Below are positions 152 to 54,212 of a DNA stretch of 64,000 bases, piece after piece. The translations under genes were made by a program, and so were the position numbers. This stretch comes from Heliocidaris erythrogramma (lineage: Eukaryota; Echinodermata; Echinoidea; Camarodonta; Echinometridae): contig CM046863.1 in the NCBI GenBank assembly GCA_025617745.1, positions 4,660,160-4,724,159 on the forward strand. The letters run 5' to 3'. Positions within the stretch are counted from its first letter, which is position 1, and each line of letters starts with the position of its first letter. The notes under the pieces are model-generated. The model had not been told where the DNA came from. It saw only the letters and a program-made list of their open reading frames with translations, and searched no databases.

Positions 152-816
152 ATCCCTTGGACCCCACAGTGAGATGGGATCCATTCTAAGCAGATTATTG
201 TGCCTTTGTATTTTAGACATGTAGCGGTGATTATAATTTCTTTTACGAAATTGTCGTTATTGTTTTCCTTGATTGCTTGAATAGCACTCAGAGAATCTGT
301 CAAAATTACCACTTTATTATAAACATTCAAATTTTCAAGCCACCTTAGTGCCAAGACAATTGCGGCCAATTCTGATCTGTAAGATGATGTAAAATTTTGC
401 ATTCTTTTACATTCAACTACCCGCATTGCAGGCACATAATAGCAAGCAGAGGCGCTGCCGTTTGCAGGGTCCCTAGAACCATCAGTATAAATATGGAGAT
501 TATTTTTCCACATTTTATTAATATACTCCACAGTTGTATTGTATTGATAAAAAATGTTATCACTTTTTGACACAAGCTCATGTAGCGCCAATGACACTTC
601 TGGTGGAGAGATATGCCAAGGCGGCATGGGGGTAAAAGACATGAGTGATTCGTTTGCATGATACATGTATATTTCATCTTCCATAACTCTCAAACCAAAT
701 GGTTTACGCACTTTCTTATTCTTTTCATATTCAAATTGCCAGCAGTTCTTCAAGGAGGATTGGAGTGGATGTGTGGGGTTTTGCCTTATTTTTGCTTTGT
801 ATACCTTACTAAGCAT
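130..816 (-). pseudogene. RNase H domain of ORF2, frameshifted off the RT
   Basis: This 228-residue reading continues ORF2 one base out of frame. RNase H landmarks are visible: YTDGS with the first catalytic Asp, SSYRSELAAIVLALRWL with the Glu, VVILTDSLSAIQAI with the second Asp, and EWIPSHCGVQG before the fourth acidic position. Directly after GVQG the expected NE-A-D segment is missing and the reading stops seven residues later. The domain is therefore both frame-separated and truncated at its last catalytic block. RNase H removes RNA from the cDNA hybrid; this copy should not. Confidence 0.85.
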
Positions 817-3472
817 GGATCTTCTTTAGGTCGAGTGGTAATTCACCCGTGTCCACCTGTAAAGATTCTAAGGAAGTTCCCGGCAACGCCCCTGTACACA
901 ACTTCAGAGCTTGGTATTGAATAGTCAGCAAGAAGTTCTTCACATGATCATGAGCCGAATCATATGCCTCAGATGCATAATCCAAGAGTGGCCTAATGAC
1001 CACCTTATAGAATTTCAGAAGGCTTTTATAGCTACTTCCCCAGGTAGTTCCCGCTAGTCTTTTCATGATATTTATTTTCTTTTTAGCTTTTGTTACAATC
1101 ATATTTATATGCGGTCTCCATGTAAGCTTCCTGTCCAGCATTACACCTAAAAATAGATGTTCCTCCTTTGGTGGTAAAGGGACCCCATCTAAGTCAATCT
1201 GTACAATTTTGTTAGTATTGCTGAAAAATAAAGTAACAGACTTTTCTTTAGAAAGGGTAAAACCCCATTTGTTGAACCACTCATTTAGGTTGTTTACGTA
1301 GATTTGTACTTTTCTTTTCAGAAAATCTATGTTTTTCCCACTCTTCCATATTACACAGTCATCAGCGTATGTCGAAATATTGACAGATGCGTCCATCGGT
1401 ATATCCGATAACATCAAATTAAAAAGGACAGGACTAAGTGAGCTGCCTTGGGGCAGCCCTTCCTCTATGTTGTGTGTTACTGAGTAGCACTGATTTGCCC
1501 GGACCTGGAAAGAGCGCCCACTTAAGTAGTTCCATAAGAACCTAACAGTGTTGCCTTGGAAACCAAGTTTGTTCAGTTTATAAATCAATCCTTTCTTCCA
1601 CAGTCTGTCATAAGCCTTCTCCATATCAAAGAAAACGGCCAGGGTATGTTCTTTATTACCAATACTCTTTTGAATGTCATTTTCTAGTTGGGTTATATTG
1701 TCTTTTGTGCTTCTTGCTTTTCTAAAAGCACTATGACAATTTGGTAACAGACAATGTTTTTCCGTAAACCATGTCATTCGTTCCTTGATAATTTTCTCCA
1801 CTATTTTGATGAAACAGGTAGTAAGAGATATAGGCCTATAGGAAGAAACATCTGTAGCTACCTTGTGTGGTTTCAATATTGGGACAATAACATAATGCTT
1901 GCATTGGGTGGGAACAATTCCTGTTACCCATATGTTATTCATGATATTTAACATTACTTCTCTCCCTTTGTATGAGAGATTTTGATATACTTCATACCCA
2001 ATTCCATCTCTACCTGGAGAAGACTCTTTACAGGTTTTTAATATTATACTTAATTCATACATGGTAAAGGGTTCATCAAGGACACTACTACTCTGTGCAT
2101 CACTAAAGGATGATATGATATCGTCACATTGGCTAGCAATTTCTTTTTGTTCAGGGGTATTAACCTTGCCCTGAAAACTTTCGTTAATGGTTTTAAAATG
2201 GCTGGCGAAAGTATCCGCGACTTCACTGTCAGTGATTGCGGAACAATCCTCTCTCATGAGAACAATGTTTTTCCTGGTTGAAATACCATCATTATTGATC
2301 CTTTTGATCATACTCCAGATATTCGATAGAGGGGTAAAACGATCAATGTTCTGACAGTATTTTTCCCAGTATAATCTTTTAGCTTGCCTTAAAGTTCTTT
2401 GAGCGATAGCTCTTTTCTTCTTGAAATCCTCCACTAAATCAGCAGAGGGTATTACATAACTTTTCAGTTTGCTCCTTGCCCTATTTCTCTCCTTTATTCT
2501 AGAGGAGCATTCTTTATTCCACCATGGCACAGGGTTTTTCTTTATTTTCTTTGTCGCCCGATGTGCTTTCACTTTTTCCAGGGAAAACCTAATTGTTTCC
2601 ATGAAAGTTTGGTACTCTATAACCTTACCTTCATTCTGTAAGGTATCCCATTGTTCCTCAGTTAGATGCCTAAATTCATCCCAATTTACATTCTTTGTGG
2701 ATAGCATTGAACAAATTTGTTGGGATTGATCAATCTTTGTATGTGTACTATTCTCATTCAATATGTTCAATTGGCATAACAGTGGGTAATGGTCACTTCC
2801 CAAACTATTGTTCAGGACTTGCCATGTTGTTTTGTTAGCTGTACAAGGAGGGGCTAAGGTTAGATCCAAACAAGAAAAATTACCCGTGTGGTAGTCTACT
2901 CTAGTAGCACTCCCATCATTCAAAATAACTAGGTTTCTCTCGTTTGCAAACTCTTCCACTACTTTACCATTTGTATCTGTTTTCTGGCTACCCCATAAAG
3001 TGTTGTGTGCATTAAAATCTCCTATTATGATTGTGTGCTTTTCCTTCACAACATTGTTAAATAATTCATTTAACGAACCAATGCTGAGTTTGTTACATGG
3101 GTTATAGAAATTGACTATATTCACAGAAACGTTATCATTCAATAAAACTTGTAATGATATGATTTCTAAATCATCGTGTTTGAAAACTCTATTGTAATTT
3201 AGTTTAGAATACACGTATATTGCACACCCACCCCGAGTTCCTCCTTGTCTATTTCTATATTCACATATATAATCTGGAATTTGCATAATACATCCATCGT
3301 CAAACCACGTTTCTTGAATACAGATAATTTCAAAGGGTCTTGTTTGCTGATTTAAAAAACTAATTAACTCATCCCCGTGGCATCCAAGACCCTGTGCATT
3401 CCACTGGAGAATGCTGAAAGCCACGAGTGTAACAAGGCTAGTGGAATAGGCCATGAATGGTCTGTAATTCAT
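809..3472 (-). CDS. Retrotransposon ORF2: AP endonuclease and reverse transcriptase
   Basis: 887 residues from ATG 3472. The N-terminal exonuclease-endonuclease-phosphatase fold shows the catalytic landmarks QWNAQG (about residue 24), QETW, GDFNAHNTLWG and GSDHYPL; it nicks target DNA. The RT follows, with RPISLTTCFIKIVEKII, the A motif FFDMEKAYDRLW (about 610), GLPQGSSLSPVLF (about 669), the active-site YADD (about 702) and LGVMLDRKLTW. The frame ends in ELPLDLKKIHA, a point where relatives continue into RNase H; here a one-base frameshift puts RNase H into the next frame, starting at 816. Target-primed reverse transcription is the known mechanism of the family. Confidence 0.9.
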   Translation of the reverse strand: MNYRPFMAYSTSLVTLVAFSILQWNAQGLGCHGDELISFLNQQTRPFEIICIQETWFDDGCIMQIPDYICEYRNRQGGTRGGCAIYVYSKLNYNRVFKHDDLEIISLQVLLNDNVSVNIVNFYNPCNKLSIGSLNELFNNVVKEKHTIIIGDFNAHNTLWGSQKTDTNGKVVEEFANERNLVILNDGSATRVDYHTGNFSCLDLTLAPPCTANKTTWQVLNNSLGSDHYPLLCQLNILNENSTHTKIDQSQQICSMLSTKNVNWDEFRHLTEEQWDTLQNEGKVIEYQTFMETIRFSLEKVKAHRATKKIKKNPVPWWNKECSSRIKERNRARSKLKSYVIPSADLVEDFKKKRAIAQRTLRQAKRLYWEKYCQNIDRFTPLSNIWSMIKRINNDGISTRKNIVLMREDCSAITDSEVADTFASHFKTINESFQGKVNTPEQKEIASQCDDIISSFSDAQSSSVLDEPFTMYELSIILKTCKESSPGRDGIGYEVYQNLSYKGREVMLNIMNNIWVTGIVPTQCKHYVIVPILKPHKVATDVSSYRPISLTTCFIKIVEKIIKERMTWFTEKHCLLPNCHSAFRKARSTKDNITQLENDIQKSIGNKEHTLAVFFDMEKAYDRLWKKGLIYKLNKLGFQGNTVRFLWNYLSGRSFQVRANQCYSVTHNIEEGLPQGSSLSPVLFNLMLSDIPMDASVNISTYADDCVIWKSGKNIDFLKRKVQIYVNNLNEWFNKWGFTLSKEKSVTLFFSNTNKIVQIDLDGVPLPPKEEHLFLGVMLDRKLTWRPHINMIVTKAKKKINIMKRLAGTTWGSSYKSLLKFYKVVIRPLLDYASEAYDSAHDHVKNFLLTIQYQALKLCTGALPGTSLESLQVDTGELPLDLKKIHA

Positions 3473-4754
3473 CTACGGTGGGATGTAAGCCCAGTGTATC
3501 TTTCAAGATATGTGTAATTTCATCAAATGGGTTACAATCTGGCTTTGTGACTATTCTGATTAATCTGATAAAGAAAGAGACAAGTGTGATGTCGGGGACA
3601 CCTTTCAAGAAATTTCTATTGTTTTGGTCTGTATTTTCAGACTTATTGCTTGTCGTATCCGTTTTGGTAGAAAATTGCGAGCCGGAGACGATTTCCATAT
3701 CGGTTTGATCGGAATCTACAATTGTTAAATTCTCTTTCCGAGTATTTATTTTGTCATTTTCTTTTATTACATTCTTAAGTTCTGAGTTTTTAAACTGTTT
3801 TTCCTGCTTATGTTCCTCATTTTGTTCTGAGTGTAGTTTCACTGCCTGTGCAAAAGAAATTCGATTTTGTATTTTAATTTGCTGCACTTCTTGTCCTTCT
3901 TTCGATGACTCGCATCCTTTATAAGCGGCCGAATGGTTACCATTGCAATTTACACATTTGAAATGTTGTCTCTCCAGCTCGCAACTTTCTACCGAATGCC
4001 CTAGGCCACACCTAGGGCACCTCTCCTTGGCTTTACATCCTATTGCTAAATGCCCGTATCTTTGGCATTTGTAGCACCTGGGTACTGGTGGAATGTATTC
4101 CTTGACTCTTATCTGCTGGAAGCAAAATTCAACATATTCAGGAACTTGAGGGGTAGAGAAAAACAGTATGATAGTTTTTAGGGGCTTCAAATCACCTTCA
4201 ATTCTTTTTTTCATTCTCTCAACTTTCACTACCCTACTTCGTTCTAGCTTTTGCAGAATATCTTCCTCAGATGTCTCAAGAGAAATCCCAAATATGACCC
4301 CTTTCGAGGCGTAGGTTTTTTCCTCTGCTTTTACTGCAATTTTGCCGATCTCCGGTATCTGGGTTAAGGCTTTATATTGCCTGTCATTTCTGCATTTTAC
4401 TAAGAGCCCCTTCCCACCTCGAACAAACTTAATGTAGTCTGGGGGAGACCTACAAGCCTTTTCTATATCTTTCTTGATAGTTAGCTGATTTACTGCGCTC
4501 AGGTTTTTATTTCTCTCTATGGGTACTAAGAGCACCTTAAGGTCTGTTTTTTTGGCGTTTTCACCTGTTTTGAGCGGAGTTGACGGCGGGGTGCCGAAGT
4601 CGGTATCCGCCGCCAACTCCTCCACATCACTTAAACTACCCCCTCTCATCCTTTTTTTGGCTAATTTTAGTTTTCTTATTACTTGAAAACCTCCATCATC
4701 TACTGAGGGCTTCAGATGAGTTTGATTCTCTGCCACTGGAGTGGCGCCCGCCAT
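3438..4754 (-). CDS. Retrotransposon ORF1, gag-like nucleic-acid-binding protein
   Basis: The 438-residue protein has an ATG at 4754. Around residues 225-280 lie three zinc knuckles in a row: C-x2-C-x4-H-x4-C (CYKCQRYGHLAIGC), C-x2-C-x3-H-x4-C and C-x2-C-x3-H-x6-C. Such ORF1 proteins coat the element RNA and form the particle in which reverse transcription starts. The stretch before the knuckles has the RNA-binding-fold character common in these proteins, and the C-terminal third is polar and low-complexity. Its stop (3438-3440) lies downstream of the ORF2 start at 3472, a 35-base overlap in another frame, which suggests coupled translation by reinitiation or stop-start. The frame is intact. 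Confidence 0.88.
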   Translation of the reverse strand: MAGATPVAENQTHLKPSVDDGGFQVIRKLKLAKKRMRGGSLSDVEELAADTDFGTPPSTPLKTGENAKKTDLKVLLVPIERNKNLSAVNQLTIKKDIEKACRSPPDYIKFVRGGKGLLVKCRNDRQYKALTQIPEIGKIAVKAEEKTYASKGVIFGISLETSEEDILQKLERSRVVKVERMKKRIEGDLKPLKTIILFFSTPQVPEYVEFCFQQIRVKEYIPPVPRCYKCQRYGHLAIGCKAKERCPRCGLGHSVESCELERQHFKCVNCNGNHSAAYKGCESSKEGQEVQQIKIQNRISFAQAVKLHSEQNEEHKQEKQFKNSELKNVIKENDKINTRKENLTIVDSDQTDMEIVSGSQFSTKTDTTSNKSENTDQNNRNFLKGVPDITLVSFFIRLIRIVTKPDCNPFDEITHILKDTLGLHPTVDELQTIHGLFH

Positions 4755-5009
4755 TTGTGGTTTTGGCGGGAAATTTAAACAAAAGCTATATGGTGCAGGT
4801 GCAGAGTGCGTGAACGGCCCAAAAATGTCAGCTTACCCTTCTGCAATCCGAATATCCCCCAAACTGAAAGCAAATCCAAAATGATCCGAAGTATATGTCC
4901 AAAATATATCCAAAATACAGAATCCAAAATCCAAAATCCCAAAGTAATCCCCTGTTTATGCTCCGTATGTGTGATAAACGACAACCAGACAGCTGATAGG
5001 TAGACCTAC

Positions 5010-8206: not shown

Positions 8207-8612
8207 GTGAGTACACCATATTTTTTGTTTTAATCCTTACTGCAGTATTCCTGTATTATATAAAGCAGTTTGGATGCAAAATTTGGCTCCTTATGAAATT
8301 AATATTACGATATTCTATAAAAGAAAATAATGTTTTAGCCTTAATGTAAATAGAGGAAGATTATTCTATTTGCAGTGTACATGTATTTTCTTGTCCTATG
8401 TGCAGATTAACGTTTGTTTCCTCTTTCCCCATCACAACATTTTACACTGCGATGTTGACAACTAAATTATTAGCTAATCCTCTATTGTTTATTTGTGAAT
8501 TTCAAAGTAAAAGTTACCTCACTATCACCTACATCATAGACTACACTGTGCATTGTTTTGAATTTGTCTAATCATAGTTTCCTTTGTACTCTTTAAAAAA
8601 AATCTTTTATAG

Positions 8613-8737
8613 GAAAGCCAGGCATGTGGCCTATAGGCAGCTTGTAAGATGGTGTTGGAGTTTCCTGGGCAGGGCAGGACGTGTTCCTCTCCCATCTTGT
8701 GCCGTGACAAGAATCCGTGCAGCATTTCCATCAGAAC
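8613..8737 (+). CDS. P2X7 intracellular (ballast) domain protein, next exon, ends in transposon
   Basis: The acceptor ..aatcttttatag at 8612 is followed by one base that completes the split codon of the exon at 8104-8206, so the phases agree. The reading RHVAYRQLVRWCWSFLG..RVPLPSCAVTRIRAAFPS is the C-terminal half of the ballast domain. After FPSE the frame runs into TTGGCGGATCCAGGGGGC, the end of a dispersed hAT-like repeat, and the expected closing residues are missing. The gene is probably truncated here; the alternative is a chimeric end, since the frame stays open to about 8952. Confidence 0.72.
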
Positions 8738-8938
8738 CATTGGCGGATCCAGGGGGCACAGCCGGCCCGGTCCCCCCCCCCCTTTTGGAAGAGAAGTATG
8801 ATTTTTTTTTTGCTTGTCAGGGAATTATGGAGGGAAACTGGACCCCAATAACCCCCTACTTAGCGATTTTTGAAGGTTTGGCGAAGGTTTGGCGAAGGTT
8901 TGGCAAAATTTACTGCATGTATATATATATATATTTAA
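8738..8938. mobile_element. hAT-like repeat fragment, GGCGGATCCAGGGGGC end
   Basis: It starts CATTGGCGGATCCAGGGGGC with a C-rich run and contains GCTTGTCAGGGAATTATGGAGGG and AACTGGACCCC. The same modules occur inverted at 12945-13166 and, less complete, at 61020-61235, so this is a dispersed family. The CAGTGGCGGATCCAG end is typical of hAT-derived MITEs (from memory). It holds a triple 12-bp repeat (GAAGGTTTGGC, about 8870-8903). Its right half probably resumes after the nested element, near 9383. Confidence 0.65.
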
Positions 8939-9378
8939 AGACCTCAGCCTGACCCAAAACAACCATATGTTGACGTAAAGCTTAGTAAACAAAGAATATA
9001 ATTACCCTGGGTATTCATAAATTTTCGTCTCCGTTTATCCATAAAAAATAAAAAAGATTTTTTTTGGTCCGCCCCCTCCCTATTGCGTAAGAGAGGAAAC
9101 TGCAGGGGGACGCTAGACGTGTGACGACATGTCATGTATACAGCTCCGAGTGCGTCTACACGATATGTCGTCATCAAATTTTTCACCCCCCGCAAAGTAG
9201 CGTTCCTCAGAGACGGGGCCCTCGTCAGAAAAACCACCGGGGCTCAACATTCGGGACGCTGTTACTCATTCCACAGGAAACGGAATCTCATGAAGTTGGT
9301 TTCAATTTGTTCAGAAAATATATGGCTCCCCGTGGATGAATAAAGTGTATATTTCAAAATTCGGTCAGGCTGAGGTCT
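8939..9378. mobile_element. piggyBac-type MITE, 16-bp TIRs, TTAA duplication
   Basis: Perfect 16-bp inverted ends AGACCTCAGCCTGACC (8939-8954 and 9363-9378) are flanked on both sides by TTAA (8935-8938 and 9379-9382). TTAA duplication is the hallmark of piggyBac and Kolobok. The 440-bp body has no transposase, only an internal inverted pair around TGACGACAT/ATGTCGTCA. It sits inside the hAT-like repeat that itself interrupts the P2X7-domain exon. Confidence 0.85.
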
Positions 9379-16067: not shown

Positions 16068-17590
16068 GGTACGTTCACACGTAGAGCGATAGCATCGATG
16101 CTATCGAGGTGTCGATGCTATTTTGGTGAAGACCAGATAGTGTCGAGACCAAACGCTGTCTGAACGCAGATAGTCACGAGATAGAAGCGAGTTTCCAAAC
16201 TATTCTTGCAGCGAGTTTAGCAGGAGTAAATCTCAGGATCCAGCGACAAAGCATCGACGCTTTGCGGTAGACCACCCACCGCGCTTGTGACTATTTGTCG
16301 TGTGAGCGCAATCGCTGCTATCTTCACTCGCTGCTATTATAATTCTATCTGTTTCATGTGGTGCTATAATATAATGCAATGTATGTATTCATGTGATGTA
16401 CCCTCTTCCCTACTTTTTTTTCTATTATCATTCAGTCTGTTTCATCTGGTACTGTAATATAATGTATGTATTCATGCGATGTATATAGGGGTATAGTAGG
16501 GTAATACTGTGTGGTAAGGAAGGGGTTTTTTTTTTGGGGGGGGGGGGTCCTTCTTTTTATCTTTTTCTTTTTTATATATGTGACCAGGCACCACAAAACC
16601 ACCCAAAAGTCGCACTGTGTGATTTTCAGTTAGAGATCAATCAATGTGTTTTGGTTGGCATGCATGGTCAAATTTTAGTGTATTTCCTGAAAGAGTATAC
16701 TTTTTTCTAAGTAATCTAAAATGTGGAGGCACCAAACAATCTAGAAGTGGTATTTCTGCCAGGTTTTTATCAGACTTATGTGTGTCTTCTCTGGATTTTG
16801 TTGTATTACTTTTCTTTTTCACGACCCTGAATACTTGTCTCATTTTAATCTCCCATAAATCTCCCGGAGTAAGTTCTTGCATTGATACTTGTGCACTATG
16901 ATAAACATTTTATGTCTATGTAGTATGCCAAGTTTTAGGACAATCTGATAATCCCTTCATAGAAATTTTCATTGAGTTATAATCCTCCATTTGTCACCTT
17001 TGCAAGTCAGAGTGCTTCAATAGACTGCAAACTTTAAACCCTTTTTAAGAAGTAACATTATGAGGGACTGTGTATTCTTCTCTTTGTACATTGAGTTATG
17101 AACATCCAATGAGTTATATATCATTTTAAAGCTGAGAATCTGCTCTTTCAGAATCAGACATACTAAAGTATGATGTGGTCTTTAGATATTGATTTACATG
17201 TGCTTACCAGAGAATATAGTGTGCATGCATGTGTTTTATTTTGGCATAAGATTGGAGTACAGTCAAGTTTGAATGTACAAGGTTTATTTAAAATTAAGTA
17301 TTATAACACATATATTTGCTACTTGATTGTATTATCGATATTACAAATGAATTGTTATTGTGTTATTATGTTGATTTATGAAGACATATAACTTCCGCGC
17401 GTTTGACCATGCATACCAATTATACTCGGGTCACTCTGTGTGGCGCAGTAATTATTGTTTTGGCAGCGGGTGAGCGATGAATAGTCACGAGTGGGTGATA
17501 GAAGCAAGTCGATCACGGCCTGTCTGAACGTACTGGAAATATTTTTGAAACTTACATAGCATCGATGCTATGTACTACGTGTGAACATAA
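16068..17590. mobile_element. Degraded TIR element, GTTCACACGTAG ends
   Basis: The left end GTTCACACGTAG..ATAGCATCGATGCTAT is inverted at the right end, where ATAGCATCGATGCTAT..CTACGTGTGAAC closes the unit. Inner modules (GTCTGAACG, ATAGTCACGAG.G..GATAGAAGC) appear at both sides. No transposase is visible and no clean target duplication was found. Diverged direct repeats lie on both sides. Confidence 0.6.
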
Positions 17591-19571: not shown

Positions 19572-22500
19572 TTACGAATAAGTGGATAGCAAATACTTCT
19601 TTAACGAAGCTTTAAAAGAAAAAAGAGATACGGCGTGTTTAATATCATGAGGTAAATTGTTCCAAACATCTGGACCGTGATGTCTTATCGTTTTTTGGGC
19701 TATTATTAATTTTGGATTTGTTAGATGAAGATCTGATGAATGTCGTGTCGGGTAGGAATGGACATCTCTGTTGTAGATAAAAATATTATGAAAGGATATT
19801 GGTGTAGCGTTGGTGGAAAATTTATACATAAATATAGCAGTTTGGTAGGTGTGAATATCGTTAATTTTCAATGTTTTAAACTTATGAAATATAGGATCGG
19901 TGTGGGCTAAGTAATGAGAATGAGAACAGATACGGAGTGCTTTCTTTTGAAGACGCAACATAGTGTCTATATTCATTTTGTTACTATTTCCCCATACTAT
20001 GTTACAGTACGATATATGTGACAAAATAAATGAGTTGTAAAGCATCAATAGCGATCTTTGAGAAAGATAATATTTGAATTTATATAAAATACCTATGCCT
20101 CTTGCTACCAACATGCTAATGTTACGAACGTGACTATTCCAAGTTACATTTGAGTCGATCAATATACCTAAAAATTTTGTTTCATGTTTTTCGGTAACGG
20201 GCATGTCATCAATAAAAATATTATTACGAAATACATGTGTAGAATTAATGTGTTTAAAGTACATGAAGTTTGTTTTGTTTATATTGAGGGAGAGTTTATT
20301 GGATTTAAACCACAATGATAATTTCTTTAGTTCTAGATTCAGAGTTGTAACAAGCATATTTAAATTTTGGTGTGAATAAAATATGTTAGTATCATCTGCA
20401 AATAAAACGTATGTTAGTAAAGGTGATGCATTGACAATATCATTCATATATATTAAAAACAGCAAGGGCCCTAAGATTGAGCCCTGTGGTACTCCACATT
20501 TCACAGTACATATATTAGATGATTTGGATTTGAAATTAACATATTGACGTCTATTATCTAAGTAGTCCTTAAACCAGGAAAGTACGATCCCTCTGATGCC
20601 ATATGTCTTTAATTTACATAATAATATAGCATGATCCATTGTATCGAATGCCTTCGATAAATCCATAAAAACCCCAACAGTGTGCTCCTTTTTTGAAAAT
20701 GAATCGGTTATTTTGTCGTAAAGTTGTAAGATTGCGTAGTCAGTCGAATGATTTTTTCTGAAGCCATATTGGTTGGGAATTAATAATTTATTCATATCCA
20801 AAAAAGAGTATAAACGTTTGTAAACAATTTTTTCAAGTATTTTAGAAAAGGTTGGTAACAACGAGATTGGGCGATAATTTGCGATACGGCATGGGTCATC
20901 TTTTTTAAATATTGGAATTATTTTGGCAAGTTTTAGTGAATTAGGAAAAATTCCCTGGGAAAGAGATAGATTGAAAATATGTGCCAGCGGGGAAGCCAGG
21001 AAATGAATAATTTGTTTTAATAGATATACACTTATTCCATCATGGCCACTAGATTTTGAAGGACTTAGAGATCGAACAATTTCTAAAATTTCATGAACAT
21101 TCGTTGGATTAAAAAATAATGAGTGTTCGGTATGATTATTTAGATATTGTGAAAAATCATTATCATTAGTAACAATCGTTGAGGCCAATTTAGGGCCTAC
21201 ATTAGTAAAATATGTATTAAATGCTTCAGCAATAAGACCATTGTCTTTAATGGAATTTCCATTCTCTAAAAATTCAACATTTTGTATATTTTCTCTTTTT
21301 TTACCTAACATTTCATTAATTGTATGCCATAATGTTTTGTTATTGTCTTTATTGCTTTCAATTTTGTCAGAGAAATACGATTTTCGTGCTAAACGGATAA
21401 CAGAAGTTAACCTATTGCGGTATTTTTTATATTTGTTTTGATGTGCCAAAGTAGGTGATTTAAGTGATATTTTATATAATCTATTACGAGTAAATATTGA
21501 TTTTATGATTCCTTGAGTGATCCACGGTTGTTTATTCTTCTTTTTGCTGGAAGTTATTCTTGTTAGAGGCACATTTTTATCATAATAATAAAGAAGTTTG
21601 TTTATAAATATTTCGTATGAACTATTAACATTTGTCTCATGAAGAACACCTTGCCAACTTTCTGTACTCAAATCTGTTTTTAGGGACTCTATGTTGCGTT
21701 TGGTTTCTTTTCGTCGAGTAATGTGTTCTTTATTTGAATGTTGATGTAAGCGTTTATTATCTGAACATATCGTGAAAATTGGTAGATGGTCTGAAATATC
21801 GTAATATATTATTCCATTACTATCTCTACTCAGCACGTTTGAGAAGATGTTGTCAATTATTGTGTGTGTTGTATTTGTAATCCTCGTAGGTTTGTCAATA
21901 AGAGGTTTGAAAGAAAATGATGATAATAAATTAGTAAAATGTTGCCCAAGGGCAGTGTAAGGCAAAGAGAGATCTATATTAAAATCACCCATGAGGTAAA
22001 TGTCTTTGTTTTCTCGAGATACGGTTTCAAGACATGATTCTAATTTATCTAAAAATATATCAGCTATGTTGTTAGGTGGTCTATAAATTACACCGACTAT
22101 TTTATTTTTATAGTTATCGTTAATAATTTCTATGAATAGGGTTTCTATGCCGTTGATTATAATATCATGCCTCACTTTATAATGCAGATTATTGTGAATA
22201 TAAAACGCAACACCGCCTCCCTTACCATTTTTGCGATCTATATGTTTAAACGTGTAATTCTCAATATCAAATATGGGAGGGGTCGTTGAGTGTAGCCATG
22301 TCTCTGTCAAAGCTATTATAGAAAAAGGAAATGAATTTAATATGGATAAAAATTCATTGAAAGTATCAAAGTTCTTTTGCAAACTTCGGATATTTATATG
22401 TATTACGCTGAAAATTTTTCGTTTACCATTTTGGTTTGTTGAATTAAAAGTAGAAATGAATTCTTTTGCAGTATAGTATTTGCTCTGGGAATTAAATAGT

Positions 22501-22625
22501 TCATCATTTTGGAGTGCTTGGTGCGTGCAAGTGCAGAGAGGTGCATGTAGTGATGTGTCGAATTGTGTGTGTGTGTACATGTTCGCGTATGTGTGACAAT
22601 CAGACAGACTCGGGGCTGGTGGCAA
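19572..22625 (-). CDS. CR1/L2-group ORF2, intact endonuclease-RT
   Basis: The open frame is 1017 codons. It has no ATG at 22625; the first in-frame Met is at 22580 (residue 16). EEP endonuclease: HINIRSL, ALTETWL, GDFNIDL (about 211) and SDHLPIF. RT: RPISLLPTFSKILEKIV, FRKNHSTDYAILQL, the A motif FMDLSKAFDTMDH (about 651), CGVPQGSILGPLLFLIY and FADDTNIF (about 742). The C-terminal module has HSYPTRHSSDLHL and GPDVWNNLPHDIKHA, typical of CR1/L2-group elements. No RNase H. An unbroken frame of this length suggests recent insertion. Confidence 0.92.
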   Translation of the reverse strand: MPPAPSLSDCHTYANMYTHTQFDTSLHAPLCTCTHQALQNDELFNSQSKYYTAKEFISTFNSTNQNGKRKIFSVIHINIRSLQKNFDTFNEFLSILNSFPFSIIALTETWLHSTTPPIFDIENYTFKHIDRKNGKGGGVAFYIHNNLHYKVRHDIIINGIETLFIEIINDNYKNKIVGVIYRPPNNIADIFLDKLESCLETVSRENKDIYLMGDFNIDLSLPYTALGQHFTNLLSSFSFKPLIDKPTRITNTTHTIIDNIFSNVLSRDSNGIIYYDISDHLPIFTICSDNKRLHQHSNKEHITRRKETKRNIESLKTDLSTESWQGVLHETNVNSSYEIFINKLLYYYDKNVPLTRITSSKKKNKQPWITQGIIKSIFTRNRLYKISLKSPTLAHQNKYKKYRNRLTSVIRLARKSYFSDKIESNKDNNKTLWHTINEMLGKKRENIQNVEFLENGNSIKDNGLIAEAFNTYFTNVGPKLASTIVTNDNDFSQYLNNHTEHSLFFNPTNVHEILEIVRSLSPSKSSGHDGISVYLLKQIIHFLASPLAHIFNLSLSQGIFPNSLKLAKIIPIFKKDDPCRIANYRPISLLPTFSKILEKIVYKRLYSFLDMNKLLIPNQYGFRKNHSTDYAILQLYDKITDSFSKKEHTVGVFMDLSKAFDTMDHAILLCKLKTYGIRGIVLSWFKDYLDNRRQYVNFKSKSSNICTVKCGVPQGSILGPLLFLIYMNDIVNASPLLTYVLFADDTNIFYSHQNLNMLVTTLNLELKKLSLWFKSNKLSLNINKTNFMYFKHINSTHVFRNNIFIDDMPVTEKHETKFLGILIDSNVTWNSHVRNISMLVARGIGILYKFKYYLSQRSLLMLYNSFILSHISYCNIVWGNSNKMNIDTMLRLQKKALRICSHSHYLAHTDPIFHKFKTLKINDIHTYQTAIFMYKFSTNATPISFHNIFIYNRDVHSYPTRHSSDLHLTNPKLIIAQKTIRHHGPDVWNNLPHDIKHAVSLFSFKASLKKYLLSTYS

Positions 22626-41945: not shown

Positions 41946-43640
41946 TTAGGTTTTGTAAGGAGCCAATACAAATTTCTTTAGATTTCTCTTAAAGATTGTG
42001 AGTGAAGAGGATTTTTCCAAATCATGGTGCAAAGTATTCCAAAGTTTAGGACCTTCAAAAATAAATGTTTTTTGTGCAGAAAATGTTCTCAAAAATGGTA
42101 AATGAAATTCATCCGACTGTCTGGTGGGATATTTGTGAATTGTACGATTTTTTAGAAACATATCGTGAAACGCAGATGGTAGAGTACCACAATTGTATTT
42201 ATACATAAATTCACCAAGATGAAATAAGTACAGATCTTTAATTTTTAGGATGTTATGTTCAAGGAAAAGAGAATCCGTATGGGCACGTATAGGAGCATTA
42301 CAAATTATACGAATGACTTTCTTTTGTAGTAGTAAAACTCTTTCCAGCAGTGTTTGATGACTGTTTCCCCAAACCAAAAGACCATAGTTTAAATATGGTA
42401 AAATAAGAGATGAGTAAAGCATAAGTAAAGATGCTTGAGGAAGGTGTGATTTAAGTCTGTTAATGATACCGATATTGCGAGAGATAATTTTACAAATATT
42501 TTCGATGTGTATTTTCCAGGAAAGTTTACTGTCAACCAAAACACCTAAAAATTTGGTTTGAGAGACTTGCTCAAGAGGGATATTGTCAAAAACAATATCA
42601 GTAGGTAATGATGCTAAGGAGTTACTAAACAATATATAATTCGTCTTCAGAAGATTCAATGATAATTTATTAGCCCTTATCCATTCTAATATGTTACGCA
42701 GCTCTCTATTGATTACATCGACAAGAACATTTGGATCACTGTGAGAAAAAAAAAATTGGTGTCATCTGCAAATAAGATGAATGACAGGGAATCGGATGAT
42801 TTATGAAAATCATTTATATAAAGTATAAACAATAATGGGCCTAACAGGCTTCCTTGAGGGACGCCACAAGAAATATCTTTAAAATCTGATGCTTGCTCGT
42901 TTAAGAAAACAAATTGTTTTCTGTTAGAAAGGTAGCTCCTGAACCACTCCAAGGCCTTTCCACGAACACCAATATGAGCAAGTTTATAAAGTAAAATATC
43001 ATGATTTATCGTATCAAAGGCCTTGGAGAAGTCCAGGAATATACCTACTGTGTGAGAAGACGAGTCAATTAAATGGGCAACTTTCTCAACAAAAGACATC
43101 AAAGCATGAACAGTACTATGTTTCTCCCTAAAACCAAACTGGAAATTAGAGAGGATATCATATTTTTAAGGAAAGAAATCATTCGAGTAAACACTATCTT
43201 TTCCAAAATTTTGGAAAAAGAAGATAGTAACGAGATTGGCCGATAATTACCTACTTCAAGTTTGTCACCTTTTTTGAATAAGGGAATAATTTTTGCTAGT
43301 TTCATGGAATTGGGAAATTTACCATGCATCAATGATAAATTTCAAATGTGGACCAAAGGATCTACAATAACAGGAATAATGGCTTTCAACATTACGTTAT
43401 TAATTCCATCAAAACCGGAACTTTTTTTATTCTGTAAGTTGGATACAATATTAATGACTTCTTGCCTATTCGTAGGAAAGAGAAAAATAGAATTTGGATT
43501 AGCAGGGCCTAAAAAATCACTATAATTTCTGTTTGCTGGGGAATATTTTTAGAAAGATTGTTGCCGATTGACGAAAAGTAAGTATTAAAGATATTCGCTA
43601 TATCTTTGGAATCTTAGATAATTCTTTTTCATGCGCATGC
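41946..43640 (-). pseudogene. CR1/L2-like RT pseudogene
   Basis: Three out-of-phase minus-strand readings follow one another. At 43332-43099: LAKIIPLFKKGDKLEVGNYR. At 43102-42713: FLDFSKAFDTINHD, CGVPQGSLLGPLLFILYIND and LFADDTNFFF. At 42659-41946: KFLGVLVDSKLSW with the C-terminal module HKYPTRQSDEFHL and GPKLWNTL. The upstream endonuclease is missing apart from a faint NIFNTYFSSIGNNL at about 43560-43600. It resembles but is not identical to the ORF2 at 19.6 kb. Confidence 0.85.
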
Positions 43641-43702
43641 ATTAATAAATATAGCAAATATTAAATTATATAAGTATACAATATCAAAGGACAGAAATTA
43701 TA

Positions 43703-44042
43703 GTCCGGCAGCCAAACCCGGATTTTGGGCCTAAGTTTGGATTTGAATGTTATAGTTTTTTTTTTTTAATTGATATGGACTGTTTAGACCTTCTATTTTA
43801 ACAATCCACATGCTGGAGCTCTGTCAGCATTGAGCAATTTGAGATATACGCGAAAATCCAAAATGGCCGCCGGCGGCCATCTTGGAAATGCTGTTTACCT
43901 ACTTTAAACATCCCTAGAATTTTCAAAAATGGGTAATAAAGGTTTTTTTGGATGGAGAATCCAAATCTGAGGTTAGTTTGAAGATATGACAATGTTTTGA
44001 TGTCTAGATATAAAATGGCGGCTTATTGTCAAGATGGCGCCC
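43703..44042 (+). repeat. Left TIR of the 5.45-kb unit
   Basis: Matches the right TIR inverted over nearly its whole length apart from a diverged patch 10-50 bases inside the tip. Confidence 0.85.
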
Positions 44043-44159
44043 CCAGTGGCCTATTCAAATATTCCTATGATATTCAGTACAAAGTCAATTAAATAAGATT
44101 TTGTATTTTTTTCCTGATATTTAGAAACAAAAGCCAAAAGTGAAGTGGGGATATGGGGA

Positions 44160-44221
44160 TGGGGGGGGGGGGGGGAAGGGTAGCCCCCTTCCCAATCACA
44201 CGCACACACACACACACACAC

Positions 44222-44255
<34 letters not shown>
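44160..44255. repeat. G run, (CA)n and (TA)n microsatellites
   Basis: G run at 44161-44175, (AC)n at 44202-44224 and (AT)n at about 44225-44253, next to the inner edge of the left TIR. Confidence 0.9.
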
Positions 44256-44256
<1 letters not shown>

Positions 44257-45399
44257 TAAAGACAAAACAAATGACGTTCACTTTTTGTAGATGACAAAAA
44301 GTACATGTACTCACTTTTACACATGTACATGTATACATGTTTTTAAACATTTTTGCTCCAAAAAATGATCTGACACTGGTCTTGCAGAGATATTGGCATC
44401 CACATTTGAAGGTGTTGGCAAGATGATGACAGGGAAGAAACTCCCTATGAAATTGAACATGAGAGCCATTCGGATGGTAGCTGAAGAGCTCCTTCGAGAT
44501 ACTCTTTCTACTGGATATGATTGTGAAGTCCCAAAGAGAGCTTCTTTCTGAACTGGAGAACCTTGTGCTACGGAGTTGCACAACAAAGATGTGGGTTCAA
44601 AATCTCATCAATCCTGTGCTCACCATGATGATGTATGTGAGGGCGAGAAGCTGATTGGGCCCTTCATCTCCAGGCAGTGAAGCCCATGATCCCCTAATTC
44701 TTTGCATCCCCACACCTTAATTATGCTCAATATTCTTTGCTCTATCTCAGGAGCATGGAAGCTCTTCCAGAAGACGTCCTTCAGAATTTCTTGGAAGGTG
44801 AGCATGTCATGCGCCATAATCAAGGGATCTGGAACGGCATATGGAGCGATATGTTCATATATAGAGAGTACCTTCACGAGGTATGGACATGGCAAGTGTG
44901 GCATCATCGGAATCACACTCAAACCTGGAACCATGAAGACATGGGCCCTTAGTTTGCATGCTTGCGGAAAGATGCTTCAAGATCTGTCTGACATTCAGGA
45001 AAATGCATCATGTTGCAGTGCTACAAAACACAAAGAAGAGTATGCATCTCGTATCTCAGCAAGACAAAATCGACAGAAAGGGTAGAATTAAAGTAGATAC
45101 CTGCATCTTCCCTTGGAGCCAAAGGGTCATCCAAAAGCCATGATCGCAAATGTTGTGAATGGCCGTCTTGCTCCAGAGTCAGTAAATGTAGATATTGCAC
45201 ATGCAATAGGAATGAAGCAGATGAAAGAATTTGAACAAAATTTGCCAGAAGGTTACTCTGCTCCTATATCAAAGAAGGTGGTATTGATGAGCATGGGGAA
45301 GAAGGCCATCGACTTTGGTGAGTCAAAATTATATGACACGAAAATTGGTCTACTCGCAAGTGATTGGAGTACAAGCAAGTTCGAGGGATCTTTTGCGCA

Positions 45400-45465
45400 A
45401 GTTGCGCCTTGAGCATTTGACCATCAAGTTGATTCGGCGCCTTATAAATCTTATATATTATTATT
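45400..45465 (+). mobile_element. Short SINE-tail-like insertion
   Basis: GATTCGGCGCCTTATAAATC followed by (ATT)n interrupts the pseudogene between its SSRD and DVMSCELSP blocks; it looks like a SINE 3' tail. Confidence 0.4.
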
Positions 45466-45567
45466 ATGATCTAAATTTCTGTGATGTGATGTCTTGTGAA
45501 CTCTCACCTAGCTGTGCCTACACCGTTGTTTGGCGACTGTGGCCTGGTGAAGCCACTCGCCCGAAGA

Positions 45568-46543
45568 GGGAGATGCGTATGACCGTTACCACAAATGCAA
45601 ATAACCCCCTTTTCCATTCAGTTTCAAGGACATTTTGTGAAATTTACCCCCCTTTATTACGTCAAAACCAGGAAAAAAATGGTACTTTGAAATACCCCTA
45701 TTGTAAGGACTCTTTCGCAAACTCACCCCTATCTTACCATAGTTCAAGGACAAGACATTATATCCTTTTTTCATTAACATAAAGGTGTCCAAGACCCTCG
45801 AATTACAAGTTCACACACAAGTAATATTCAGTTCACTAAGTTCACTAAGTCCTATTTCAGTACATACGAAATCGGTAACGCATATCCGAAATCTGCTGTT
45901 CTGTAAGGCAAAATAAATTTGTCCAAGACAAGATCAACAATTAATTGTTTTAATACCTCTCGTTGCCAAATGTAATGTCCTGAAATGTCAAATACAATTT
46001 CTTGCACAGTTGCACTAGTCAACAAACTCCGTAAGTTTAAGCCTATAATTGAATGCTTCTTCTGCGTGTAGATCTCCTTCTACTATCATCTTCAGGATTT
46101 CGTGTTGGGCTAACGGTGATGCGAATTCTTCCATGATCAGGACCAGAGTTTTCAACTGATGTATTTCTGCTTTGTGAAGTGAGACTAACTGACCTTGCAT
46201 TGCATACAAAATGAATCTGTTAGCGTATTTGCATCATGCTGGCTCAGAACAAATTTGACGCCCAATCGTGTCCTCCTCTGATCCATCCTCAGTGTCCTTG
46301 CAAACAAGATTCACTTTCATGATGACATCTTGCAACACAACACCAACATTGGTGCTTGTATTGATGAAGACATTTTCCAGGATTTTTCTTCCCAGGTTTT
46401 CTTCCCTTTCCTGACACCTATTTTATCAATTTCGAGGACACTTTCGCACCCCTATTTTCTATATTTCTAGGAATATTCTGTCTGCAGACGTTCCTTGAAA
46501 TCGACCCCTTTTCTGGCGATTTTGGTAACGGTCATGCGGTCCC
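45568..46543. mobile_element. TIR element inserted in the nuclease-like pseudogene
   Basis: The ends GGGAGATGCGTATGACCGTTACC and, inverted, GGGACCGCATGACCGTTACC enclose 976 bp that fall between the DVMSCELSP and DMQIAKSK blocks of the pseudogene. No transposase; a 64-codon minus frame has no motif. The target duplication is not clear. Confidence 0.65.
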
Positions 46544-48215
46544 TAAGTCACATTGAGTGGCTCCACCGGGGACTGTGGTGACATGCAAATTGCTAAATCC
46601 AAGGCCACCTTGAAGAATCAGATTAAGGTTGAAGTCAGTTCGACAAGACAGACGGGAAGACAGCAAGGTGAATTACGCACAGTGATTGATGGCTGTGCCC
46701 TCCTGTGGATCCCCAGCTGGCCGTCATCATCACCGACAAGACAAGCAACTGTGATGGATTACTTTAACAAATTCAAGAGCAAGGTAGCCGACCATCTTAA
46801 ATCTGGAGAGACGTATTTAATCTTCGATCGCTACTGTGATTACAGCATGAATTGTGCCACCATATCGTCCAGGGGAAATGACGGATCACGGGTATATCAA
46901 CCAACCTGTCATCACCTCTTCCTACCCAGAAACTGACTCTTCACCGTTAACGTGAACAAAAGAAAACTAATTCACAGCATATCCAAAGAAATTCAAACAG
47001 ACAGTGATTTTCATGAAAGAGAATAGACACAAGCTTGTCGTCACTGATGAAGAAGCAACCCCTTTTGAAGTTCGCCCAGATGGGTCACTAACACGGAGGC
47101 AGCATTTGTCAACTAAGCATGAGGAAGCCTATACCATCATTGTCCAGCAAGCCATCAAACTGACAGCCGATGAGGGAAGTTTCACTCGAGTGATCGCCGA
47201 CGATACAGATTACCATGATCAAGGTCTTACATCACCTTTAGTGACGGAGTCACCAATCAAAGACAGGACCGTCATTGCCATACCTGGAACAGTCAACAAG
47301 TATAATGAAATCGTCCACCTGATGTTGCCAGGTCACATGCTGACCGGCTATGACACAGTTGGGGCATGTTTCGGCATTGGTAAGGGAACTCTGCTGAAAG
47401 TCCTTAGAAACAATTCTGGGATGCAGTTGGAGTCAGGAGACATTAGGGAGTTTTCGATTGTGTCAATTTGAACGTCGTCCTAGATCCTCCCAGCTACAAT
47501 GGACTGCTTTGTGCCAACTGCATACAGCGCTTTGTTCAAGAACGGCTAACCCGTCCACTGGCTTCTCCCTCGTCCACTGGTCAGATCGATAATGCGTCAA
47601 ACATGGTATTGCCGTCTTCTCTAAAACGTGAACCTCGCTTCACCCATGGTAGCTTCATGCTTCACCTACTTTGTATGCAGTTAACACAAAGCAGTCCATT
47701 GTCGCTGGGAGGATCTAGGACGGCGTTCACATTGACACATTTGAAAACTCCCTATTGAGGGTGACATGGCTGATGTCATGCATGAAGCGACTGCACTTAT
47801 TGGAGCTTGTTATGGGCAACCCAGTGCTACACCAATGACAGAGGCACGTTGGAGCACATGGCGATCAAAAGTAGGATGACCAGGGGCAATGAACATGCCA
47901 AATCTCTCTTCCCTGCAACAGAAGCCTTCACTGAAATGTGATACGTGCCCACCTTCAAACATGGACGGAGAAAGGCCCTGGATCTCAATCCTAATGTCCC
48001 AGACCCGACAAATTATGCTTACTGTATAATGAAGAAAAAAGCAATTCACTCCTACCAATAACAGTTCCTCCACAAGTACAGCTAGCTCCTGCAAGCATTT
48101 TGAAACTCATCCGCTGTACGTGTTCAAGTGACATGCCTTGCAGAACATCTCGATGTGGCTGCCATAAGGCAAATCTAGCCTGCACAATATTTGTTCGTGT
48201 AATGGCTCTTTAACT

Positions 48216-48805
48216 TGTCACAATGACCAAACAAGAGAGGCAAGAGATATTTCCAGCTATCCAGAAGAAGCAGAGGAATTAGATGAATAAACAGTATAGG
48301 ATAAAGACTGATATTCAGGAACATGAAATCACTTTACAGCAGTTTTGGCAAAAGTAGCAGTATGGCTCTAGCACTTCAGGAGCAGGATTGTAGAATTGTT
48401 CCATCACACTATTCATCAGGGAGAGGGACAGATTCTCCAACAGCAGAGTGGTGTAAAAATCTTTAACAGTCATTTAGGGCCCAGTTTGATCATTATTTTG
48501 TATCATCCCAAAGAGATTACTTTCAAAACAAACAAGAGGTAGTAAAAAAAAGTCATATCAGGAGGATATCTTAAAAATGATGTATACCTAAAAAGTTTAC
48601 AGAACAGCAACATTGCTATTTTGAAACTTTGTACTTAACTCTGATATTATTTTACTTAATAAACCTAACCTTTAGGGTTTAACCTTCGTAAATTATCTAC
48701 ATTATGCCCCTACCCCTTGTCCAAATAAATGGGTTAGAGTTAAAGGATAAATCAGTTCTACGTGCGCTTTTACTTAGTCTATACATTACTATACAGCATG
48801 TTTAT
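48216..48805. other. 3' region of the TIR unit, no gene
   Basis: AT-rich sequence between the last cysteine-rich block and the right TIR. Confidence 0.5.
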
Positions 48806-49154
48806 ATGGCGGCCATCTTGAAAATTAGCTGTCATATTATATCTAGACATCAAAACATTGTCATATCTTCAAACTAACCTCAGATTTGGATTCTCCATCC
48901 CAAAAACCTTTATTACCCATTTTTGAAAATTCTAGGGACGTTTAAAGTAGCATTTCCAAGCATTTCCAGCATTTCCAAGATGACCGCCGGCGGCCATTTT
49001 GGATTTTTGCGTATATCCCAAATTGCTCAATGCTGACAAAGCTCCAGCATGTGGATTGTTAAAGGTCTAAACAGTCCATATCAATTAAAAAAAAAAATAT
49101 AACATTCCAATGCAATCTTACCCCCCCCCCCCCCCCCCCCCCCCCCTGCCGGAC
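48806..49154 (-). repeat. Right TIR of the 5.45-kb unit
   Basis: Inverse of 43703-44042. It includes a small local duplication of CATTTCCA (48948-48975) and the C26 run (49121-49146). Confidence 0.85.
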
Positions 49155-49159
49155 TAAAA

Positions 49160-52540: not shown

Positions 52541-52797
52541 GGGGGCGAGCCTACCGCTTAGCGGTTAATAAAATACAGAATGTCAAACATAATTGTGGGG
52601 ACATTTTGACCAACTGTTGGTGAGTTCTCCCCTTGGTCAGCTCGATGACATTTGGCTGGCCGCTCTGCACAATTCCATCATTTTCTTCACCAATCTGCTG
52701 GACGACTGATCTAATTCTATATAAATTCAAATTTGTTGTAGCTATGGCATTTTGACTAAAAACCATCGCTGGTTGTAATGCCACCATAGTAAATGAG

Positions 52798-54212
52798 TTG
52801 AAAAGTCTAAACGATATGCCTATTGAATGTCAATTTACAGATGTAGTAAAGTACTTTAGCTGTATAAACCCCAGGAAAGCCATGGGACCTGACAGTATTT
52901 GTGGCAAAGTGCTCAAAACATGTGCAAGGCAACTTGCTGTTCCTTTCGCCAGCCTCTTTCAAGAGTCACTGAATCAAAACTATGTCCCACAATGTTGGAA
53001 ATCGTCTACCGTCATTCCAGCAGCAAAAACACCCCGGGCCTCTGAGCTGAATGATTATCGGCCCATAGCCCTCACTTCCTTGGTCATGAAATCTTTTGAA
53101 TGTCTGATTCTCCAGAAGCACTTACTGCCACAAATACTGCCACACATTGATTCACAACAATTTGCTTATCAACCTAAAAAGTCTGTTAACGATGCCATCT
53201 TACTCTTAGTTGATACAATTGCTCGGCATGTCGACAAACTTGGCCACTATGTTCGCATTACTTTTGTAGATTTCGCTTCGACTTTCAACACCATGCAACC
53301 CCACATACTAATGCAAAAACTCAGTAAGATGACTGTTAGACCCTCACTGATACTGTGGTTGCATGATTTTCTGACAGGTCGATTCCAAGGGTTCAATTAT
53401 TGAATGTTCTTTCGGATTTTATAAACATCAACACTGGGTCACCACAGGGATGTGTGCTTTCTGCACCGCTATTCATTCTGTACACGAACGATTGTATATC
53501 ATCCTCTGCAGATGTCAGTATGATTAAATATGCAGATGACACGGCTATTATCGGTCTGATTTCAAGAAACAATGAGCAAAATTATAAAGAAGAATTGCTT
53601 GTGATTGAAAAATGGTGCGATGAGAACTTTTTGGTTTTAAATACTAGTAAAACGAAAGAGATGATAACCGATTTCCGTTCTATGAAACAAAACAATGTAA
53701 ATCCGATAACAATGAAGGGCAAGACTATAGAAGTAGTTGATAGTTTTAAGTACTTGGGAACAACTGTTGACAATAAACTGACATGGATCGACCAATGTCA
53801 GAATGTGTATGCAAAAGCACAGCAACGGTTATACTTTCTGAAAAAGATGTACTCATTTCACGTTGATAGGACAATTCTCCTGTTGTTCTACAAATCAGTA
53901 ATTGAAAGCGTAATTCTGTCTAGTTGTGTAGTTTGCTTTGGAGCATGCAGACAGGAGGACTTTAAACAATTGAAAAAAATCCCCAGGCACGCGAAGGAAA
54001 TGATAGGCGAAGAGACTAATTTGAATGAGGCATGTACCTCTCTGATTTTGAAACAGGCTGAAATTATCTTTGAAAATACAAATCACCCTCTCCATTCCTA
54101 TTATACTGTCATGCGTTCTGGAAAACGGTTTCGATCGGTAGGATTTCGTACAAATCGTTTTGGAAACTCATTTATCCCGCTGTCAATCCGGGAATACAAT
54201 AAACTCAAGTAA
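52798..54212 (+). pseudogene. Rex1/Babar-like reverse transcriptase, one frameshift
   Basis: Two open readings, 52798-53403 and 53400-54212, form one RT with a frame break at about 53400. Landmarks: KAMGPDSICGKVLKTCA, DYRPIALTSLVMKSFE, FAYQPKKSVNDAIL, VDFASTFNTMQP (A motif; the usual FSSAF is changed to FASTF), TGSPQGCVLSAPLFILYTND, KYADDTAI (active site) and FKYLGTTVDNKLTW. The FNT and SPQGCVLS style is that of Rex1/Babar, within the CR1 group. The endonuclease is absent, so the copy is 5'-truncated or its front part is unreadable. Confidence 0.85.

Follow-up and report, generated by a model that had tools for sequence, protein, structure and literature searches.

A crippled DNA transposon with remnants of a transposase-nuclease gene in Heliocidaris erythrogramma and its probable AcademX affinity

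A 64,000-nucleotide stretch of Heliocidaris erythrogramma contig CM046863.1 (GCA_025617745.1, positions 4,660,160 to 4,724,159; hereafter, the window) holds a unit of ~5.45 kb which a sequence-only reading had taken for a DNA transposon carrying an orphan metazoan gene. Alignment of the two ends of the unit confirmed terminal inverted repeats (TIRs) of ~340 bp that are 88.8% identical across 322 alignment columns (E 2e-105; Table 1). Within the window, the exact 11-base tip, TAGTCCGGCAG, is confined to the two ends of the unit, with one occurrence at each, and when up to one mismatch was allowed, three matches were found versus 0.27 expected, a number reached in none of 100 shuffles. The TA thought to lie outside both tips does adjoin GTCCGG on either side of the unit, yet it belongs to the terminus itself. 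A frame survey placed coding remnants on the + strand at 44369-48287, and the motifs VIDGCALLW, YLIFDRY, and ADDTD, together with a terminal cysteine cluster, are all on this strand. The motifs of the unit's "only gene" are thus present, but the gene itself is broken, i.e., it is spread over three frames with stops, carries inserts of 1028 bp and 309 bp, and lacks the first 688 residues of the frame found in a longer copy, L024. The coding stretches that are kept show 91-93% DNA identity to L024. As had been proposed, a nuclease-like core and a cysteine-rich (CXC) end were recognizable, both in the window remnants and in relatives; a Pfam search with pieces of the window gave no significant match. 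We regard the window unit as the dead copy of a DNA transposon, presumably of the cut-and-paste type, that is non-autonomous owing to its internal deletion.

Table 1. Features of the transposon copy in the window.
Feature	Position	Strand	Remarks
Left TIR	43701..44041	+	tip TAGTCCGGCAG at 43701-43711
Internal-deletion junction	44290..44369		~80 bp of other sequence as filler in place of 4.1 kb; transposase front gone, with first two candidate catalytic aspartates
Rear DDE transposase domain and linker, frameshifted remnant	44369..45542	+	91% DNA identity to L024
Nested insert A, 1028 bp	45543..46570		8-bp direct repeats GACTGTGG at 45535-45542 and 46571-46578; site uninterrupted in L024
FEN/EXO1-type nuclease remnant, front half (VIDGCALLW, YLIFDRY)	46571..47020	+
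Nuclease remnant, rear half (HEEA, ADDTD, HMLTGYDTVGACFGIGKG)	47030..47444	+
Nested insert B, 309 bp	47445..47753		inverted repeats of ~86 bp, 91% alike; 3-bp duplication ATT; site uninterrupted in L024
C-terminal remnant to CXC cysteine cluster	47754..48287	+	cluster at 48112-48233, in two frames
Right TIR	48808..49156	-	tip at 49146-49156

We used the left repeat to search the 1.06-Gb source genome (26 contigs) and fetched 20 regions (L009-L028). Results showed that the repeat occurs in at least 40 places, or about 20 elements, and 18 matches (the query itself counted) span at least 336 of its 340 bases with 95-100% identity. One of the fetched regions, L024, holds an 8.8-kb element with TIRs as in the window copy and TTA/TTA flanks; its coding sequence consists of an open frame of 1255 residues and an overlapping frame of 259 residues, with a small deletion at ADDTD relative to the window. 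When eight queries (the window, L010, L013, L014, L022, L023, L027, and L028) were compared to L024 by BLASTN, all but L028 had one common junction, at which ~4.1 kb is lost relative to L024 and ~80 bp of filler (57 bp in L023) is found. Site A holds an insert of 1.0-1.3 kb in all seven gene-bearing copies, and site B one of 240-310 bp in six of the seven, while L022, without sequence left of site B, cannot be judged. Inserts A and B are themselves nested, TIR-type insertions present in sister copies too. Using the L024 protein in tblastn, we detected gene remnants in 19 of the 20 entries besides L024 (window counted), whose start corresponds to L024-frame residue 689 in 18 of these 19 and to residue 703 in L023. 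The part corresponding to residues 1-688, or close to half of the protein, is therefore missing. Substitutions amount to 2.2-4.6% between the window copy and other short copies, versus 6.4% between the window copy and L024. Since the deletion and both nested inserts are shared, the copies descend from one founder that had been crippled before its spread, and mobilization would therefore have been in trans. In the set of copies detected with this TIR, the multi-copy form is a crippled deletion derivative, not the full element.

Target-site duplications were counted in copies having both tips at no more than one mismatch, i.e., 14 of the 20 fetched regions plus the window; L018, L021, L025, L026, L027, and L028 failed this tip test at one end at least and were left out. 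A 3-bp duplication was found just outside TAG...CTA in 14 of the 15 copies, while 4-bp agreement was found in none. Flanks are shared by L012/L017, L015/L016, and L019/L020, leaving 11 independent sites. The sole exception is the window copy, with TTA on the left, AAA on the right, and no matching duplication. We also compared 15 joined flank pairs (window included) to the window and all fetched loci, and obtained one junction-spanning match, between the L011 flanks (C21) and window positions 17390-17570 (179 of 181 bases identical, ungapped). The match extends over 158 bases on the left side of the junction and 23 on its right, beyond which the sequences diverge. This empty site reads GGTATGCATGG, with TAT once, while the filled L011 site reads GGTAT-element-TATGCATGG. 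Given the 3-bp match in 14 of 15 copies and the L011 empty site, the duplication is 3 bp, of variable sequence, and TA belongs to the terminus; the TA duplication that an empty site had been expected to confirm was not upheld. Tc1/mariner and other TA-duplicating superfamilies were ruled out on the same grounds. The elements are TIR-bounded insertions with a 3-bp duplication and a shared deletion and inserts.

In the source genome, we found 44 matches with the L024 protein (37 of 462 candidates scored) and 42 with that of a relative, L060 (35 of 816 scored). Thirteen of the latter 42 lie in frames of at least 1334 residues without a stop inside the match, and one of these thirteen (C10) has a second match with a stop in the same frame. 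We read three open frames, L059 (1484 residues), L060 (1334), and L061 (1612). Judged from sequence and predicted folds, all three proteins combine a DDE transposase domain of the RNase H-like kind with a FEN/EXO1-type 5' nuclease and, at the C terminus, a cysteine cluster. In L059, the candidate DDE residues are D468, D649, and E853, and the candidate nuclease residues include D1081 and D1223. The nuclease was predicted to have a FEN/EXO1 fold in all 50 structure matches listed, and it carries FEN-type motifs with what appears to be the conserved acidic site. The cysteine cluster is CXC/TCR-like by pattern and by a profile match with a score below the Pfam cut-off. PDB sequence searches with single proteins gave no significant match. 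A scan of seven further entries produced one DUF6589 match above its cut-off. DUF6589 may mark fungal Academ elements; a literature search on it returned no papers.

At 31% identity (BLASTP) to the L024 protein, L059 represents a divergent second family, with TIRs at 1506-2117 and 8700-9300, tips TAGTCCAGTAG, and the duplication CTG/CTG. The tips of both families conform to TAGTCC(G/A)G(C/T)AG, and both have long TIRs and 3-bp target duplications. The proposed link between the orphan gene family and a TIR DNA transposon, explaining the scatter of the family, is supported, and L059 has TIRs and a duplication of its own. Gene copies without the window-type TIRs do exist, i.e., L059 with other TIRs, and L060 and L061 with no TIR pair within the 8-kb stretches examined, but these would be members of other families. 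Conversely, L028 has the repeat but no gene remnant detectable with the L024 protein in tblastn; it matches L024 in repeats and low-complexity sequence only (BLASTN), and its divergence from the window copy is 7.3%, over 645 bases only. Such a gene-less repeat would be an eroded or non-autonomous copy.

The L059 TIRs hold 174-bp tandem repeats (1649-2079 and 8389-9170), with more copies in the right arm. L061 has two further copies that are 97-99% identical over the full 1300-base query, up to the edge of the examined stretch, and since identity reaches that edge, either the left end lies outside or the copies are larger duplications. This family comprises L061, G000:C11:35525164-35528811, and C2:13321125-13322459, and its C1 and C11 members have 1612-residue frames with no stops in the match; the near-identity suggests recent copying by transposition or duplication. 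In another subfamily, the rear part of the gene is present twice, head to head on opposite strands, at nine of nine loci (L033, L035, L036, L037, L039, L048, L051, L053, and L055), and looks like an amplified fold-back derivative. Searches of viral_contigs and genome_contigs with short peptide or DNA patterns found no relatives.

Academ elements have a Cys8-type zinc finger, and the X of AcademX stands for XPG. AcademX is a lineage of the Academ superfamily (Kojima 2020, as cited in PMC10045372). For AcademX, PMC10045372 states a nuclease besides the transposase and target duplications of 3 or 4 bp; PMC10294476 gives 100 curated Academ consensus elements with a mean length of 5565 bp. We provisionally assign the present elements to AcademX because they combine a DDD/E transposase, a nuclease, and a 3-bp duplication (14 of 15 copies at 11 sites, L059, and the L011 empty site, though not the window copy). 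The window copy differs from AcademX as described in being deleted and dead. It is probably a dead AcademX-type element, placed by described features rather than by comparison to Academ sequences, and its group is probably one that has been named before, if little described, and not a new kind. A "new superfamily," as had been suggested, is unsupported, since this same combination is stated for AcademX (PMC10045372).

The predicted transposase core resembles those of P-element and hAT (Hermes) transposases in being RNase H-like and in having an extended helical segment ahead of the final acidic residue, at 6-10% identity in structural alignments. P and hAT elements generate duplications of 8 bp, and their transposases are not known to carry a fused flap nuclease or CXC domain. 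Both the fold and the acidic site that characterize the FEN/XPG/EXO1 superfamily are predicted for the present nuclease, which is 9-19% identical to FEN1, EXO1, and XPG 5' nucleases among the matches listed and, unlike them, forms part of a protein that also contains a transposase and a CXC domain. The C terminus shares its cysteine pattern and sub-threshold profile match with the LIN54/tesmin CXC (TCR) domain. KolobokP, KolobokD, and KolobokE, as described in PMC9587614, likewise pair a DDE transposase with an accessory nuclease, but of the His-Me, DEDDh, and PD-D/ExK folds.

It is conceivable, though unlikely, that these elements form a separate superfamily, or at the least a major branch not yet described, whose single protein permanently unites a P-element-like transposase, an EXO1/FEN-like nuclease, and a LIN54-like CXC domain. 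If so, the metazoan "CXC orphan" family would be that transposase, whose end processing would necessarily involve the fused nuclease. We consider it quite improbable that they are a DDE superfamily apart from Academ, with the same mechanism, whose independent, P-element-related lineage gained a flap nuclease by itself, since a nuclease and a 3-bp duplication are what is stated for AcademX. Although its long coding stretches remain close to L024, the window element is most unlikely to be still autonomous, with protein made by splicing around the inserts; the regions of two candidate catalytic aspartates are deleted, and frame breaks and stops fall inside conserved stretches, many at positions common to sister copies. 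The missing duplication of the window copy and the gene-less L028 would suit a host gene outside any mobile unit that is bracketed by chance, either by a pair of unrelated solo insertions or by one long palindrome, but the chance of this is negligible given the single TAT of the empty site, the same remnant in 19 of 20 entries, and the TIRs and duplication of the divergent open frame L059, the last two of which ruled out a host gene caught between unrelated repeats.

For AcademX-type elements such as these, we propose that the founder, unable to make its own transposase, was spread by full-length elements that would recognize the shared TIRs. The DDE domain would cut the ends and join them to the target with a 3-bp stagger, and the fused flap-type nuclease may trim or resolve an intermediate with a 5' flap or a hairpin, either at the ends or at the donor site. 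By analogy with LIN54, the CXC domain might aid DNA binding. Large uncharacterised proteins with a nuclease-like core and CXC end are probable transposases, and their annotation as host genes is unwarranted. Several relatives have open frames, some near-identical, and offer material for asking why a DNA transposon needs a fused flap nuclease.

Elsewhere in the window, reverse-transcriptase open reading frames lie at 809-4832, 19572-22625, 41946-43341, and 52756-54212 and, by eye, are like those of long interspersed nuclear elements (LINEs).
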